Origin: Acidimicrobiales bacterium
GTDB lineage: Bacteria; Actinomycetota; Acidimicrobiia; Acidimicrobiales; SZUA-35
Assembly (NCBI GenBank): GCA_020629155.1
Contig: JAHDDW010000010.1
Span: 1 to 64,000, forward strand
Reading direction: 5' to 3'
DNA: 64,000 nt
The first letter of the stretch is position 1. Every line of letters starts with the position of its first letter. This document shows, piece after piece, positions 14,883 to 56,502 of the stretch. Position numbers and translations under genes: made by a program. The notes below the pieces were generated by a model. It had not been told where the DNA came from and ran no database searches. It was given only the letters and a program-made list of their open reading frames with translations.

Positions 14883-16193
14883 ATGTTTAGTTTGTATGAC
14901 ACGATGAGTTCGTCAGAAGTTGCTTTGCCATCAGTCGATGAGAAAAAGACGATCGGCATGTATGTGTGCGGCCCAACTGTCTATCAACGCGCCCATATCG
15001 GCAACGCTCGACCATATATTGTTTTTGCTTGGATGAAGAACTGGTTGATCTCTCAAGGGTACGACGTCAACTTTGTGCATAACATCACCGACATTAACGA
15101 CAAAATTTATGAGCACACGCCAGAAGGTGTGTTGAGCACGCAACACGCTATAGATATGGCAAAATTCTATAACGCTGACATCGCTTCGCTTGGGCTACCT
15201 ATGCCAGATGCTATGCCAACGGTGACCGACACTATGAGTCAAATTATTACCTTTATCGAGCAGATTATCGCTGCAGGTCATGGGTATGTGGCTGGTGAAG
15301 ATGTTTACTTTGATGTGGCCTCATCAGCTGATTATGGCAAATTGTCAGGCACGGTCGATCATGAAACGCTTGGCGATGGTGACGCAGCACACAAAAAAGA
15401 TCCGCGAGATTTCGCGTTGTGGAAGTCGGCAAAACCAGGTGAAGATACACATTGGGATTCGCCATGGGGTAAGGGGCGCCCTGGCTGGCATATTGAATGT
15501 TCGGCGATGGCTCATAGTGAACTTGGCGAGGCGTTTGAGATTCACGGCGGTGGCAACGATCTGACATTTCCTCATCACGAAAACGAGGTTGCGCAGTCAA
15601 CATCGGTTGGTTATGCGTTTGCAAAAATTTGGGCGCATAGTGGCATGTTGACCCTCGGCGGCGAAAAAATGTCGAAGTCGTTAGGCAATATCGACCCAAT
15701 CCATGCTGCTGTCGAGCGTTGGGGGGCCGAAACGCTACTGCTTATGTTCCTCAATTCTCATTGGCATAGCCCCGTCGAATATTCACAGAAAACGTTGCAG
15801 GCTGCCGAGTCTCGTTTGAACACATTACTCGAAGCAAACGCAACAGTGAAAGAAACCGAGCCTCCAGCGGACGAATGGGCTGCGCTCGAAACAGTTTTAA
15901 ACAAAAACTTTAACACTGCCGAAGCGTTGGCGTTGCTCCATGAGTGGGTCAATAAAGGCTATAAAGAGCTAGCGGCAAAGCTGCTCGCGATGTTTGGCTT
16001 GGGGCGTGTCGCATCGCCGCCGCAGCCGCCAGCAGATGTTGCAGCTGTTGCACAGCAACGATTGCAAGCCAAAGCCGACAAAGACTATGAGCAAGCCGAC
16101 GCCCTTCGCGCCCAAGTCGAAGCAGCAGGCTGGCTACTTCGCGACGAAGTCGACGGCCAAGTGATAATCCCCACTGTCCAGGCCTTGCGATGA
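14883..16193 (+). CDS. cysS: Cysteinyl-tRNA synthetase
   Basis: Class I aminoacyl-tRNA synthetase that charges tRNA-Cys. It shows the zinc-site Cys29 in [16 protein letters not shown], the HIGH-type HIGN (38-41), the conserved [12 protein letters not shown] and [18 protein letters not shown], and KMSKS (262-266). The 436-residue length is slightly short for CysRS (about 460). The related MshC of mycothiol synthesis is less likely, because LYDT, the DINDKI segment and the C-terminal DALR-like region ([18 protein letters not shown]) are those of CysS. Its stop overlaps the next start as ATGA, linking it to the broken phosphatase gene. Confidence 0.92.
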
Positions 16194-16914
16194 CTGCGGG
16201 GGATTCAGCGGAATTTTATGAGCAAGCGCTTGAAGTGGCACTAGAAGCATCATCGGAAGCTGCAACGTTGCTTCTCGAAGGGTTTGGCGAACCTTTAGAG
16301 TTGGCTGAAAAGTCTAACAAGCGAGATATCGTCTCGAACTTTGATGTAGCTTCGCAAGAGTCGATGTGGAAACATACTGGCTGGTAGACCCGATAGACGG
16401 AACGACAAACTACACACGCCAGCTAGAATTTTTCTCAGTATCGATAGCGTTGATTGACAAAGGCGTGCCCGTCGTTGGCGTTGTCAACTGTCCGAAATTA
16501 GGACAATTATATTCAGCCCGTTCAGGAAACGGAGCGCACTGCAACGGTGATCGTATCACTGTTTCTGATAAGGCCACAATCGCTGAATCTATTCTCACGA
16601 CGAGCATGCCTTACGAAACTAATGCGAGGAAAAAGGTTCTGCAATTCTTAGATAAAGCATCGCAAGAAGTTGATGGGATACGCTTATTTCTTTCGTGTGC
16701 ATATGACCTATGTTTGCTTTCCCGAGGAAGTATTGATAGTTCTATCTTCTTTGGTGTTAGCCCGTGGGATATAGCTGCAGGTCTATGTATTCTCAAAGAA
16801 GCAGGCGGCCAATTTACTGATGATCATGGCAATGTCTGGGCTCCAGCTAGCCAGTTGTGTGTCGCATCTAATGGGCAAGTTCATAACGAACTTCTCAAAT
16901 TGCTATCCAGATAG
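16190..16914 (+). pseudogene. Inositol monophosphatase family gene broken by an internal deletion
   Basis: The first frame (16190-16387) gives the family N-terminus up to KRDIVSNFDVASQESMW. A different frame (from 16366) continues with YWLVDPIDGTTNYTR, the metal-binding DPIDGTTN, and later SPWDIAAGLCILKEAGG. Compared with SuhB-type enzymes, about 28 residues between them are missing, including the Glu-Glu metal site (the usual EE of the GEE loop), and the join is out of frame. No continuous functional phosphatase can be made. The ATGA overlap with cysS shows it was once part of that operon. A misassembly is possible. Confidence 0.8.
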
Positions 16915-17054: not shown

Positions 17055-18479
17055 ATGAAACATATATCTGCACGTAGGTTAATCATCGGAGGCGTAGTTC
17101 TTACTGTCGCTGGTGCTTTAATAGCTTTGATTCTGACCGTCTCTGATTCAGATGGTGTGAAAACACAAGCCCAAATTGAACAGGTAGTTACGACAAATTT
17201 TGCTACTACCCTTTTACCTCTTGCGTCAGAACCAACAGAGAGCACGAATACACCCGATGAACCCAGTGACGACATGGATTCCATGGACTCTAGCAACGTG
17301 CCGAAAGACTATGAGGAGAACCTTTCATTAATTAAAAGTAACTCGACAAGGAATGCAGATGCAGATTCAAGTCCGTGGGCTTCGTCTAAAGCTAGTGAGA
17401 TAACCTATTCTGGTTTAACGACCAGCACGAATAATCCAGCTCCTTCAGGTCGCTCTAAAGGGATATTTCACGAAACTTGTAGCTTCTCTCACTTTGCATA
17501 TGATGACTTTATCGTTACTCCTAACATGCCAGGGACTATGCACTTGCATATGTTCTTTGGTAATACAAATGCGAATGCATTCTCTGATAACGACTCTTTA
17601 AGAAATGAAGGAGCAAGTACTTGTATCCGCAACGAGCTGAATCGCTCAAGCTACTGGATTCCTGCAGTGTTTAATGGGGATAATCAAGTTCTTATTCCAG
17701 AAGATATTATGGTGTATTACACTGAACGGGCTGACACTAACGTCGAGCCTTTTCCCGAAGATTTTCGCATGATAGCTGGTGATGCTATGGCTACGAGCGA
17801 GCAAGAACCTTCTGTGCCAGGCAATCGAGTGATTTATTGGAAATGTGGTTTCTTTGACAAGGCCCAACGAACTGGCGGAGGTTCTGGTGGTGATTCTGCT
17901 GGGACAATACCAAGTTGTGACCCATCTGTTTATTCTCACATGGAAATGAAGATTGAATTCCCAAATTGCTGGGACGGGGAAAATGACGGGAAACAAGGTA
18001 ACCATCGTTCGCACATGAGTTATCCTGTCGGTCTCTATAACGCCTGCCCAGCTGGAACGATTACCTTGCCATCGATTATTTATAGAATCCATTTTAAGCT
18101 TGGGCCAGAAACTGGTCCTACAAATCAATGGTATCTTTCGTCAGATGTAAGAATTAAAAACGATGGCGACCTATATCTTAACGAAGAAAAGGGCGCGAGT
18201 ATTCATGCCGATTGGGTAAATGGTTGGAATGCTGAGACAATGCGAACGGCTATTGACAGTTGCTTAAACGAGGCTAATAAGGATTGCTGGAGAGAGCTTG
18301 GTGATGGGCAAAGCGCAATCCCAGATACTAAGTACGATGACAAGAAAGCTACTGCATATAAGGGCCCGTTAGCCCTCGATCCGCAAGAAGTCGCATCATT
18401 GTGTAAAGGGCGTGCAGAAGTATCTGGTTTAGAGGCTTCTTATTGCGATAAGACGATGATGCAAAATATGATGAACTAG
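17055..18479 (+). CDS. Membrane-anchored DUF1996 protein (paralogue 1)
   Basis: An N-terminal anchor (about 9-31) and a Ser/Thr-rich stretch precede a DUF1996 domain (about 130-400): CSFSHFAYDDFIVTPNMPG, then HLHMFFGNTNANA, RSSYWIPAVF, and later FPNCWDG, SHMSYP and CPAGTITLPSIIYRIHF. DUF1996 is common in fungal secreted proteins and actinobacteria, with unknown activity; conserved His, Asp and Cys residues are present. The tail ASYCDKTMMQNM is shared with the paralogue at 46120-47544. It has its own promoter region and lies alone between the phosphatase remnant and rimP. Confidence 0.82.
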   Translation: MKHISARRLIIGGVVLTVAGALIALILTVSDSDGVKTQAQIEQVVTTNFATTLLPLASEPTESTNTPDEPSDDMDSMDSSNVPKDYEENLSLIKSNSTRNADADSSPWASSKASEITYSGLTTSTNNPAPSGRSKGIFHETCSFSHFAYDDFIVTPNMPGTMHLHMFFGNTNANAFSDNDSLRNEGASTCIRNELNRSSYWIPAVFNGDNQVLIPEDIMVYYTERADTNVEPFPEDFRMIAGDAMATSEQEPSVPGNRVIYWKCGFFDKAQRTGGGSGGDSAGTIPSCDPSVYSHMEMKIEFPNCWDGENDGKQGNHRSHMSYPVGLYNACPAGTITLPSIIYRIHFKLGPETGPTNQWYLSSDVRIKNDGDLYLNEEKGASIHADWVNGWNAETMRTAIDSCLNEANKDCWRELGDGQSAIPDTKYDDKKATAYKGPLALDPQEVASLCKGRAEVSGLEASYCDKTMMQNMMN

Positions 18480-46119: not shown

Positions 46120-47544
46120 CTACATGTTTTGCATCATGGCTGTGTCGCATAACGCTACGCTTGACGGGCCAGAATATTCCTTTTCTGTTTTGCACAATCC
46201 AGAGAGGACTTCTTCCCCTGAAATCGTTCTAGGTCCAGCATATTCTGGACGTATTTTGAGTCCCATAGCGTTTTGGTCTCGATGCGAGTCTGCCAGCAGC
46301 CCTTCATCGCAATCGGTGTCGGCTATGTTCAAGCAATTGTCGACCCAACGCTGATTGATCTCTTTGTTCCAGCCGCCGAACCAGTCGCCATGGAGAGAAT
46401 AGCCGTTGCTAGTAATTGTTTTTTGATCTTTGATACTCACATCCGATGAGAGAAACCAGTCTTTCGATCCGCTGTGGTCGCTGAAAAATATGCGATATTC
46501 CATTTGTGGCAGTTTTCTAGGGTGGCTCGATGGGCATTCTCCTGACGTTGGCCACACGTTTGAGAAGCTAGTGTTTTCGCGAAAGTTTGATGCATCTTTC
46601 CCATTCCAACAGGTCTGAAACTTTATGTTCATCTCTAATCGAGCATTCGCCCCGCATGTCGGGATCTCGACAGATTTGACGCTGTCGTTGGTTGGAATGC
46701 CGCTCACGTGACAGCGGAAAAAGAGTTCTCGGCTATTGGCGGTGCCAGGTTGAGGCGACGTTGCCATAGGGTTACCGCTAACAAGCTGCATATTCTCGGG
46801 GTAAACCTCGGTCGATCCAATCGCTGGACCATAGGCTTTGTAATAGACCAGCAGTTCATCAGGAATCGGGATGTCGCCGTTCTGGTCGATCATTGCTGGA
46901 ACCCAATATGATGTCCGGTTTAGTTCTTGACCGTTGCATGTGCTAGAGCCAGAGTTGAGTAGCGAATCACTAGTTGAATATGCATTTGCGTCGGTGTTGC
47001 CAAAAAACATGTGCAAGTGTGAGACGCCTGGTTTATTTGGGAAAATAATAGGGTCATCATAGGCAAGGTGGGAGAACTCACACTCGACGCGAAATGCTCC
47101 AGATCCTTGGATGACGCTGGTAATACCATCTGCTTGATAATCACGCCAGCTAACAGTAAGTTTATCGATCGGCAAGGCAGCAGATGGCGTGTTGGCGTAA
47201 CTGCTTGTGTCATGGTTTTTGTTGCGCGCGTCGAATGCTTTGATCATTGCTTTGTTGGCTGTGGCGGAGTTTTCTGCTGGTTTTTGCGTGGTTTCAGTGG
47301 TTGACGTTGCTAAAGAAGATGAGAAATTGCTCGAACTGGTGGGGCTAGACGTTGATGAAAGAGTCGGTAGCGAAGTAGCATCAACTTTTGTCTGTGTCAG
47401 GTCTGGATTTGCTGAGTTAGCTGTCTGAATGCCACTTCTCTGGCCGAGATAAAAGACGCTAAGTACTATAATAATCAGGCTCACAGCGGCACATGATGCT
47501 GCAGCTAGCTGCGTGTTTCGGTTCCACGTAAAGACATGGTTCAT
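46120..47544 (-). CDS. Membrane-anchored DUF1996 protein (paralogue 2)
   Basis: A signal anchor (about 11-32) and a Ser/Thr-rich stem precede a DUF1996 domain with CEFSHLAYDDPIIFPNKPG, SHLHMFFGNTDANAYS, RTSYWVPAMID, FQTCWNGKD and LPQMEYRIFFSD. It has the same length (474 aa) and layout as the protein at 17055-18479, and both end with C-D-x-x-MMQNM. The two are clear paralogues, diverged but with all cysteine positions similar. The function is unknown; secretion or membrane display is inferred from the anchor. Confidence 0.82.
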   Translation of the reverse strand: MNHVFTWNRNTQLAAASCAAVSLIIIVLSVFYLGQRSGIQTANSANPDLTQTKVDATSLPTLSSTSSPTSSSNFSSSLATSTTETTQKPAENSATANKAMIKAFDARNKNHDTSSYANTPSAALPIDKLTVSWRDYQADGITSVIQGSGAFRVECEFSHLAYDDPIIFPNKPGVSHLHMFFGNTDANAYSTSDSLLNSGSSTCNGQELNRTSYWVPAMIDQNGDIPIPDELLVYYKAYGPAIGSTEVYPENMQLVSGNPMATSPQPGTANSRELFFRCHVSGIPTNDSVKSVEIPTCGANARLEMNIKFQTCWNGKDASNFRENTSFSNVWPTSGECPSSHPRKLPQMEYRIFFSDHSGSKDWFLSSDVSIKDQKTITSNGYSLHGDWFGGWNKEINQRWVDNCLNIADTDCDEGLLADSHRDQNAMGLKIRPEYAGPRTISGEEVLSGLCKTEKEYSGPSSVALCDTAMMQNM

Positions 47545-49489: not shown

Positions 49490-50353
49490 TTATCCGGGAT
49501 CTTGTGCCTCTCCGTAACGAGGGGCTTTGGGGCAGGCAGAACGTATAGCCTCAAAAGGGTTTGTGAGCGTGAGCCTTGGTTTGTGGATCTCAAAGTTGAG
49601 ATGAGAAGGACCAGTTTTAGCAATACCAGTTTTGCCGACGTATCCGAGAAGGTCTCCAGCTTTTACGCTATATTTTTCGCCGTTTTTTTGGGAGCCTTCG
49701 AGAACTCCTGCATACCCATCTAAGTATGAGCCATAAAAATAGTGGCCATTGTCTGCGTAGAGTCTAAATGCATTACCTCCTCGTTCACTCTCGGCGTTTT
49801 GAACTAAACCGTCTGCCGGGGCTACAACGGGTGTGCCTCGTTCAGCGAATATGTCAATACCTGAGTTGCCAATTTCGCCTGCTCTAGCATAATTCCAGGC
49901 TTCTACGAAATTACTTAGCCCGTCTACAGGGCAGACCTCGATTGCTGAAATAGCAGCCATAGGCGCTCCTTCTAGGACCTCGCTTCTATATACACCGTCC
50001 TTAAGCTGTTCAGACTCTATAGCTTGTGTGTCTAAAGACCCAGAAGATTTTTCTAGTGTTGTAGGACTTTGATCCTCTTTAAAGCTTGTAGTAACTGGTT
50101 CTTTATCAGAATCGTTTTGATTTACTGCGGATGCGTCATTCGTGGCTGTCACTGCAGGCTGATCTGCTGAAACGTTTGTCGTATCGTTTGTAAGTTGAAA
50201 GACCCCGTACGAAACGATTGCGAAAAGGCCAACCGAAAGTGATGAAAGAATAATGCGTTGTTTCTTCTGAAAAGAGGCTGCTTTTTTGTAGACAGCTTCA
50301 ATTGGTGGTGCATCGTCAGATATTTGATTAAAGATATCGTTAATGTTTTTCAT
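49490..50353 (-). CDS. Membrane protein with degenerate M23/LytM domain, sigma-factor partner
   Basis: From ATG 50353 (AAGGAG eight bases upstream) the product has 287 residues: a short cytoplasmic N-terminus, one membrane helix (about 33-54), a Ser/Thr linker and a LytM-like domain (about 140-275) with GTPVVAPADGLV and KAGDLLGYVGKTG. The zinc motifs are broken: HxxxD has Asn163 for His, and HxH is HLN (251-253), so peptidase activity is unlikely. Its start overlaps the natural sigma stop (ATGA), the usual arrangement for a sigma factor and its membrane regulator. Confidence 0.72.
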   Translation of the reverse strand: MKNINDIFNQISDDAPPIEAVYKKAASFQKKQRIILSSLSVGLFAIVSYGVFQLTNDTTNVSADQPAVTATNDASAVNQNDSDKEPVTTSFKEDQSPTTLEKSSGSLDTQAIESEQLKDGVYRSEVLEGAPMAAISAIEVCPVDGLSNFVEAWNYARAGEIGNSGIDIFAERGTPVVAPADGLVQNAESERGGNAFRLYADNGHYFYGSYLDGYAGVLEGSQKNGEKYSVKAGDLLGYVGKTGIAKTGPSHLNFEIHKPRLTLTNPFEAIRSACPKAPRYGEAQDPG

Positions 50354-50893
50354 GAAAGTTCTCCTTGTAAAGAGGCTCGTGCGCGTGAAAGATATTTTTT
50401 GACTGATCCCTGACATTCCCATATATTCTGCTGTTTCAGCTGTTTTAAGACCCATCCAGTAATGTAGAAAAACAACTGCTTTTTGTTGTGTGGGCAACGT
50501 TGTTAGCGCCCGTGCAAGGTCTATATCTTGCACTTTGTTTTCATACGAGGGGTCAGTGAGAAACTCACAATCTTTTCTTTTAAAAGGTCGTCGCATCAAC
50601 GAACATGATTCATTAAACACTGCCTTATAGAAGTACGCGCGAACGTTGGTAGCTTTCGAATAGCGTTTGCTTCTATACGCCTTAGCCATCACGGTAGCAA
50701 CGACATCGTCGGCGTTATTTGTTCCGACGAGTGAGCGTGCATACCGCGTTAGTTCATTTGCATACTGGTGATACACCTGTTCGAAGCTCGACAACTGTTT
50801 GACCTCTCTTTCTTGGATGCCAGTTTGTGGCAAAGGAAAGCCCATCGAGGCTCTCCTTGTTTGTCTAGGGATAGAGGAAATATTGATATTCAT
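50350..50893 (-). pseudogene. ECF-type sigma-70 factor gene with a frameshift in region 4
   Basis: Region 2 (about 37-105) is clear: FEQVYHQYANELTRYARSLVG, split as FEQVYHQYANELT and RYARSLVG, then DDVVATVMAKAYR. Region 4 begins LTTLPTQQKAVVFLHYWMGLKTAETAEYMGMS. At about 50411-50414 the frame changes. As sequenced, it runs on into the M23 gene as one 467-residue fusion, whereas the other frame continues QGSVKKYLSRARASLQGELS and a stop, the canonical end of region 4. About two bases appear lost. It could be a pseudogene, a sequencing error or a programmed fusion. Confidence 0.72.
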
Positions 50894-55917: not shown

Positions 55918-56502
55918 ATGCAGTCGGTGTCACTCGATGTGTTAACGCAGAAGGCAAAGCAAGGCAGTAAGAAGGCTTTCAGCGAGATCGTGCGTCGAAC
56001 CTATGCCGATACCTATACGCTTGCTTACCGTTTGGTAGGCACTTCGGAGGACGCTAAAGACGTGGTACAGGAAACGTATCTAAAAGCACATAAGGGGTTG
56101 CAGCGGTTCCGTGGCGATGCGCAGATAACAACGTGGCTGTACCGAATCACAGCCAACTGCGCTAACACCTATTTGTCGAAAAAGCTGCGGCATAAACACG
56201 ATGTTTTAGAAAACGATGAAGAAGTTATTGACCTAAACGTTCAGCGCGATCCTGCCCATATGGCGCAAATTGTTGGCCTGCGGTCTGAACTTACCGAAGC
56301 GTTAGAGCAGCTACCTGCGAAATTGCGCACTGTTGTGGTGTTGCGAGATATTTATGACATGGCACACGCTGATATCGCCGAGCAGTTACAAATCAGTGAA
56401 TCAGCGGCCAAAGTGCGGTTGCATCGTGGTAGGCAGAAGTTAAAAGAGCTACTCTATCCGCAAAGCACTGAGATGGAAGAGGGGAGTGCCCATGCTGTGT
56501 GA
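55918..56502 (+). CDS. ECF sigma-70 factor
   Basis: The 194-residue product has region 2 (about 18-88: DTYTLAYRLVGTSEDAKDVVQETYLKAHKGL, read as YRLVGTSEDAKDVVQETY, then TTWLYRITANCANT) and region 4 (about 125-178: LEQLPAKLRTVVVLRDIYDM, IAEQLQISESAAKVRLHRGRQKL). It directs RNA polymerase to a stress or envelope regulon. It overlaps a small zinc-finger membrane protein that is its probable anti-sigma factor. ATG 55918 is the natural start. Confidence 0.9.
   Translation: MQSVSLDVLTQKAKQGSKKAFSEIVRRTYADTYTLAYRLVGTSEDAKDVVQETYLKAHKGLQRFRGDAQITTWLYRITANCANTYLSKKLRHKHDVLENDEEVIDLNVQRDPAHMAQIVGLRSELTEALEQLPAKLRTVVVLRDIYDMAHADIAEQLQISESAAKVRLHRGRQKLKELLYPQSTEMEEGSAHAV

Follow-up and report, generated by a model that had tools for sequence, protein, structure and literature searches.

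A sigma factor reading frame that runs into its membrane partner in an Acidimicrobiales bacterium, probably through a recent frameshift

The analysis of a 64,000-nucleotide stretch of an Acidimicrobiales contig (the window) reveals a single 467-residue open reading frame at 49490-50893(-), open for all 467 codons in the list of reading frames with translations, in which an ECF sigma factor, cut within the DNA-binding helix of region 4.2, is joined to a membrane protein that crosses the membrane once and carries an M23/LytM ectodomain. We consider it probable, though by no means firmly established, that this frame arose when an ordinary operon of a sigma gene and its membrane partner recently acquired a loss-of-function frameshift. 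Among named genomes, the ribosomal protein L1 encoded in the window is matched best by that of an Acidimicrobiales MAG (79%), with Acidimicrobiia making up most of the matches that follow, so the source is probably an environmental bacterium of this class.

The sigma portion was identified from Pfam matches to Sigma70_r2 (residues 41-102, 25.6 bits, cut-off 24) and Sigma70_r4_2 (residues 126-161, 34.2 bits, cut-off 25.7) and from the NCBIfam model TIGR02937 (45.2 bits, cut-off 42.9), so that both Sigma-70 regions expected of an ECF sigma factor, 2 and 4, are present; the best NCBIfam model, TIGR02983, stayed below its cut-off, and Peptidase_M23 was matched further along the frame at residues 343-438. 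The Sigma70_r4_2 match spans just profile positions 4-39 of 54, and a complete region 4.2 helix-turn-helix was not found in one frame of this gene, its remainder sitting in another. By direct reading, an ATG at 50845-50843 follows the sequence AAGGAG (50853-50858) at a distance of seven bases, and because of this placement 50845 appears likelier as the sigma start than 50893. From this probable true start to Ser161, the last family-matching residue, the sigma frame covers 50411-50845(-), as delimited by Pfam, NCBIfam, the AAGGAG and an alignment with 20 relatives. Scans of genome contigs and viral contigs with the whole 467-residue protein as query returned no relative.

The frame break was placed at 50408-50413(-) from the sequence, the tail profile and the tail lengths of relatives: one base lies between a TCA codon (50413-50411) and an other-frame GGA codon (from 50409), where relatives show a whole codon, and the spacing at this site is conserved in 20/20 aligned relatives (alignment A1). 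Past Ser161 the 467-residue frame continues as GISQKISFTRTSLF, and a profile built from the tails of 55 relatives gives this continuation -27.8 bits, while the peptide QGSVKKYLSRARASLQGEL is read in another frame starting at 50412(-). This frame scored 33.7 bits and ranked first of the 127,880 window positions on both strands (background mean -37.0, sd 9.3), ahead of a real sigma gene at 56398(+) in second place (29.0), and the displaced end of region 4.2 with its recognition helix, QGSVKKYLSRARASLQGELS followed by TGA, was assigned to 50350-50412(-) from this best-scoring position, the TGA lying at 50352-50350. On 18 columns the displaced tail reached 37.3 bits, compared with leave-one-out scores of 35.0 +/- 12.0 (sd) for the 55 relatives, 24 of which scored higher; judged by this profile, the tail is free of decay and as well preserved as in intact relatives. 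Because it is undecayed, the frame event should be either recent or not real. The partner ATG at 50353-50351 overlaps the other-frame TGA as ATGA (50350-50353(-), by direct reading), and the partner's ribosome-binding sequence AAGGAG, read directly at 50361-50366(-) inside the sigma gene end, precedes that ATG by 7 nt, the same sequence and distance as at the sigma ATG 50845.

Relatives of the locus came from searches of the family and of the order, with a single locus taken from each genome (29 + 26) and weaker and second matches excluded; their sigma genes were located by phmmer on stop-to-stop frames in all 55. In every case the sigma frame ends 19-47 residues (median 21) past the equivalent site, and none of the 55 is fused. 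In 54/55 a membrane-protein reading frame begins close by: counted from the first base of the sigma stop, its start falls between 17 bases upstream and 22 bases downstream. In 27 of these the start precedes the stop by one base, which gives the ATGA-type overlap. These results support the preliminary description, which had proposed that an operon pair has become a fusion through a frame change at about 50411 and had suggested comparing the locus in related genomes: two separate genes stand in 54/55 of them, and the other-frame tail and the 55/55 unfused relatives agree with such a change. Its account of one 467-residue frame leading from sigma regions 2 and partial 4 into a membrane M23-like protein was confirmed by the reading frame and the Pfam matches, and its expectation that a shift would restore the peptide and a stop overlapping the M23 start as ATGA, with its own AAGGAG, was borne out by the sequence and by the top rank in the profile scan. 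A close orthologue of the sigma gene was not found in genus, family or order searches (best identity 41%); two other genomes of the genus gave 23% identity in one and no match in the other (55% complete), and this lack of an orthologue weakens the case for a recent mutation.

The relatives also bear on how a fusion can come about. The partner frame is already open back to the break site in 37/54 relatives overall and in 24/27 of the ATGA type, and since it is open already, loss of frame in the matching phase near the sigma end makes fusion almost automatic; such a fusion is what a recent mutation would be expected to leave. The fused frame is, on this comparison of sequences, no evidence of design. 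The locus shows how easily a sigma/partner pair overlapping as ATGA becomes an apparent "fusion protein," and, given the open frame in 24/27, automatic annotation of single genomes would therefore report sigma-membrane fusions that are frame lesions only.

The same genome provided a further comparison. PF08281 gave 31 matches, 25 over the cut-off, and of the 26 loci that were read, 18 were judged sigma factors and 8 LuxR/NarL-type. The window gene alone among the 18 has region 4.2 broken off (profile position 39) with a frame running into a membrane protein, a point in favor of a recent mutation; one other sigma gene (L091) matches only to profile position 42, yet its frame closes about 25 residues later, and for at least six other sigma genes of this genome a membrane partner is encoded at the stop codon or close to it. 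A codon-model Viterbi frame scan of 464 kb of the genome flagged neither the window break site nor an inositol monophosphatase-like gene discussed below. It flagged three places, C37:19157, C37:92074 and C5:13098, none of which is a frameshift on inspection; all are gene junctions, which we take to be rimP/nusA, rpsM/rpsK and Nudix/ABC transporter, respectively. Indel errors are therefore uncommon in the assembly, a point in favor of a real lesion. In simulations the path model of the scan recovers 149/156 deletions when neither arm is shorter than 100 codons and only 50/84 when one is, so the short tail at the window site would escape it, and the support that the scan lends to a recent mutation is reduced to that extent. 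A promoter and terminator scan gave nothing usable.

In the reading that we prefer, the starting point would be an ordinary two-gene ECF operon, comprising a sigma factor and a single-pass membrane partner by which it is presumably held. The sigma gene would recently have been frameshifted inside the region 4.2 helix-turn-helix, leaving it, on balance, two bases shorter or one base longer than in relatives. The resulting sigma protein would lack the recognition helix and should therefore fail to read -35 elements, and its regulon is probably off. Given the ATGA overlap of the two genes, every shift of matching phase near the sigma end would enter the partner frame, making the fusion a geometric by-product. 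The partner could still start from its own AAGGAG/ATG and would be made beside an unhelpful membrane-tethered fusion.

The main competitor is an error of sequencing or assembly, or a variant from a minority strain that entered the consensus, in which case the true organism would have two normal overlapping genes; we hold this to be rather unlikely, though it deserves serious weight. The undecayed tail speaks for an error as well as for a recent mutation, and an isolated frameshift observed a single time could just as well be an error: the portion of PMC3711429 consulted treats such singletons as likely errors or recent indels and expects many of them to be sequencing errors. The inositol monophosphatase-like gene (about 16190-16914) is also broken, which shows that broken genes occur in the window and adds to the case for mutation, and as a second broken gene on the same contig it also adds to the case for error. 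Two-base losses outside repeats are unusual sequencing errors, the break site has no homopolymer (the longest run there is GGG), and no verified frameshift was found elsewhere in 464 kb, all of which argue against an error. A programmed frameshift or phase variation that toggles between the sigma and partner pair and the fusion seems quite improbable. Both frames are open through the junction, and a single +1 re-pairing step is conceivable at GGG-A; such a slip would leave the sigma factor one residue short in the helix-turn-helix, against the spacing kept in 20/20 aligned relatives, and a -2 slip would have no re-pairing codon. RNA folding at the junction is weaker than in shuffles (z +1.5) and no stable structure was found there. 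Within 50200-50600 a single tandem repeat was reported, whose unit of 9 bases cannot shift the frame; no hypermutable short repeat was found at the frame change in this interval, and an A6 tract comes only after the first correct codons of the other frame, so that its length cannot cause the break. The frame transition occurs in no other family member among the 55 relatives, and a conserved transition with a slippery site or stimulator was found neither at the junction nor in the relatives. Of the origins listed in the preliminary description, mutation and sequencing error thus lead, and phase-variable or programmed shifting loses ground for want of a suitable repeat, slippery site or RNA structure. 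A more elaborate form, a reversible population off-switch, is highly improbable; in it, cells with the present length would make a membrane-tethered, helix-less sigma factor as a decoy on core polymerase or partner, and cells of the other length would run the regulon under a dead-enzyme LytM cell-wall sensor.

A functional fusion, that is, a sigma factor tethered to the membrane, carrying its partner in the same chain and released by proteolysis as in IutY of Pseudomonas putida, has little to recommend it in our judgment. Natural ECF/anti-sigma fusions are described in the parts of PMC8999054 and PMC5411451 consulted, namely, IutY (ECF243) and ECF48/52/53; for IutY, release of the single protein by proteolysis has been shown, and for ECF48/52/53 it is expected (PMC8999054, same parts). 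The window protein resembles them in being one polypeptide, open for 467 codons, with an N-terminal sigma factor, a transmembrane helix and an outer domain, and differs from them, as far as those parts describe them, in its truncated region 4.2 and in having no fused relative. A full sigma factor fused in frame and kept in evolution was not found here: the recognition helix is absent, the region 4.2 profile ending at 39 of 54, and 0/55 relatives are fused. A long-lived fusion would, moreover, not preserve the other-frame tail, stop and AAGGAG undecayed. The window fusion is therefore not filed with IutY or ECF48/52/53, and the sequence evidence is more consistent with the recent frameshift, to which the 55/55 unfused relatives also point, 54/55 of them having a gene for a membrane partner whose start coincides with the sigma stop or lies close to it.

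The partner itself is the more durable point than the fusion. This intact gene of 287 residues (49490-50353(-), delimited by the reading frame, Pfam and a position as in relatives) is predicted to encode a short cytoplasmic N-terminus that begins with MKNINDIF, one transmembrane helix at residues 34-52 (hydrophobic IILSSLSVGLFAIVSYGVF, 50198-50254(-), from the translation read by eye) and an LytM/M23 ectodomain whose domain match, at 49580-49867(-), has a degenerate active site (Pfam, with alignments to LytM 3nyy and to the paralogue P0001). P0001, a paralogue in the same genome (G000:C47:55421-55849) that is 57% identical to the partner, retains HKGVD, THLD and HLHFE, where the window partner shows NSGID, SYLD and HLNFE; HxxxD has thus become NxxxD, HxH has become HxN, and the His of the HLD stretch has become Tyr. 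The alignment to LytM 3nyy agrees with the paralogue comparison on the lost motif residues, and the loss in HxxxD and HxH places the domain with the dLytM type. In the part of PMC8416486 consulted, HXXXD and HXH are given as the family signature, and domains substituted there are described without zinc. The partner is probably a membrane-held, inactive LytM domain and probably acts as a dead-enzyme sensor; a catalytically degenerate cell-wall hydrolase as the outer domain of a sigma partner would be a plausible direct sensor of peptidoglycan state.

As to how this partner relates to known systems, it lies directly after the sigma gene, overlaps it and carries one transmembrane helix after a short N-terminus, and by this position and topology it is presumably an anti-sigma factor, for which binding and inhibition of the sigma factor are predicted. 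Only M23-type models, and no anti-sigma models, matched it in Pfam and NCBIfam; likewise, no Pfam anti-sigma model matched three comparable partners, two from relatives and one belonging to another sigma gene of this genome, the NCBIfam check covering the window partner and that of one relative. A similar M23 domain was not found in the 55 relative loci, in which partners longer than about 480 residues are cut by the fetched stretch. No anti-sigma partner with M23/LytM was found in the portions of the literature consulted, and the search returned no paper combining Acidimicrobiia, ECF sigma factor and anti-sigma. The locus shares with the canonical pair of ECF sigma factor and overlapping membrane partner (SigE-like) region 2, most of region 4, the ATGA partner start and the one transmembrane helix, and it differs in the break in region 4.2 and in the M23 domain absent from the 55 relative loci. 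Degenerate LytM factors of the EnvC/NlpD type have likewise lost HxxxD and HxH residues (signature as in the part of PMC8416486 consulted); there the domain stands on a division protein, whereas in the window it stands on the membrane partner of a sigma factor, with a function predicted from sequence.

A large family of ECF sigma genes (L038-L066, L105-L130) extends across the order. Next after each of them comes a gene for a membrane protein that has a short N-terminus, crosses the membrane once and varies strongly in its outer domain; no anti-sigma model matched the few of these partners that were tested. Elsewhere in the window, the inositol monophosphatase-like gene is broken in two frames at 16190-16914(+): one encodes the N-terminal part, MTAGDSAEF...DIVSNFDVASQES, the other the C-terminal part, from ETYWLVDPIDGT onward, and roughly 25-30 residues are missing between the two in comparison with relatives; this supports ongoing gene decay or local assembly trouble, either of the two. 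The window also encodes two clearly similar secreted proteins (HLHMFFGNT...), presumably DUF1996-like, at 46120-47544(-) and 17055-18479(+).
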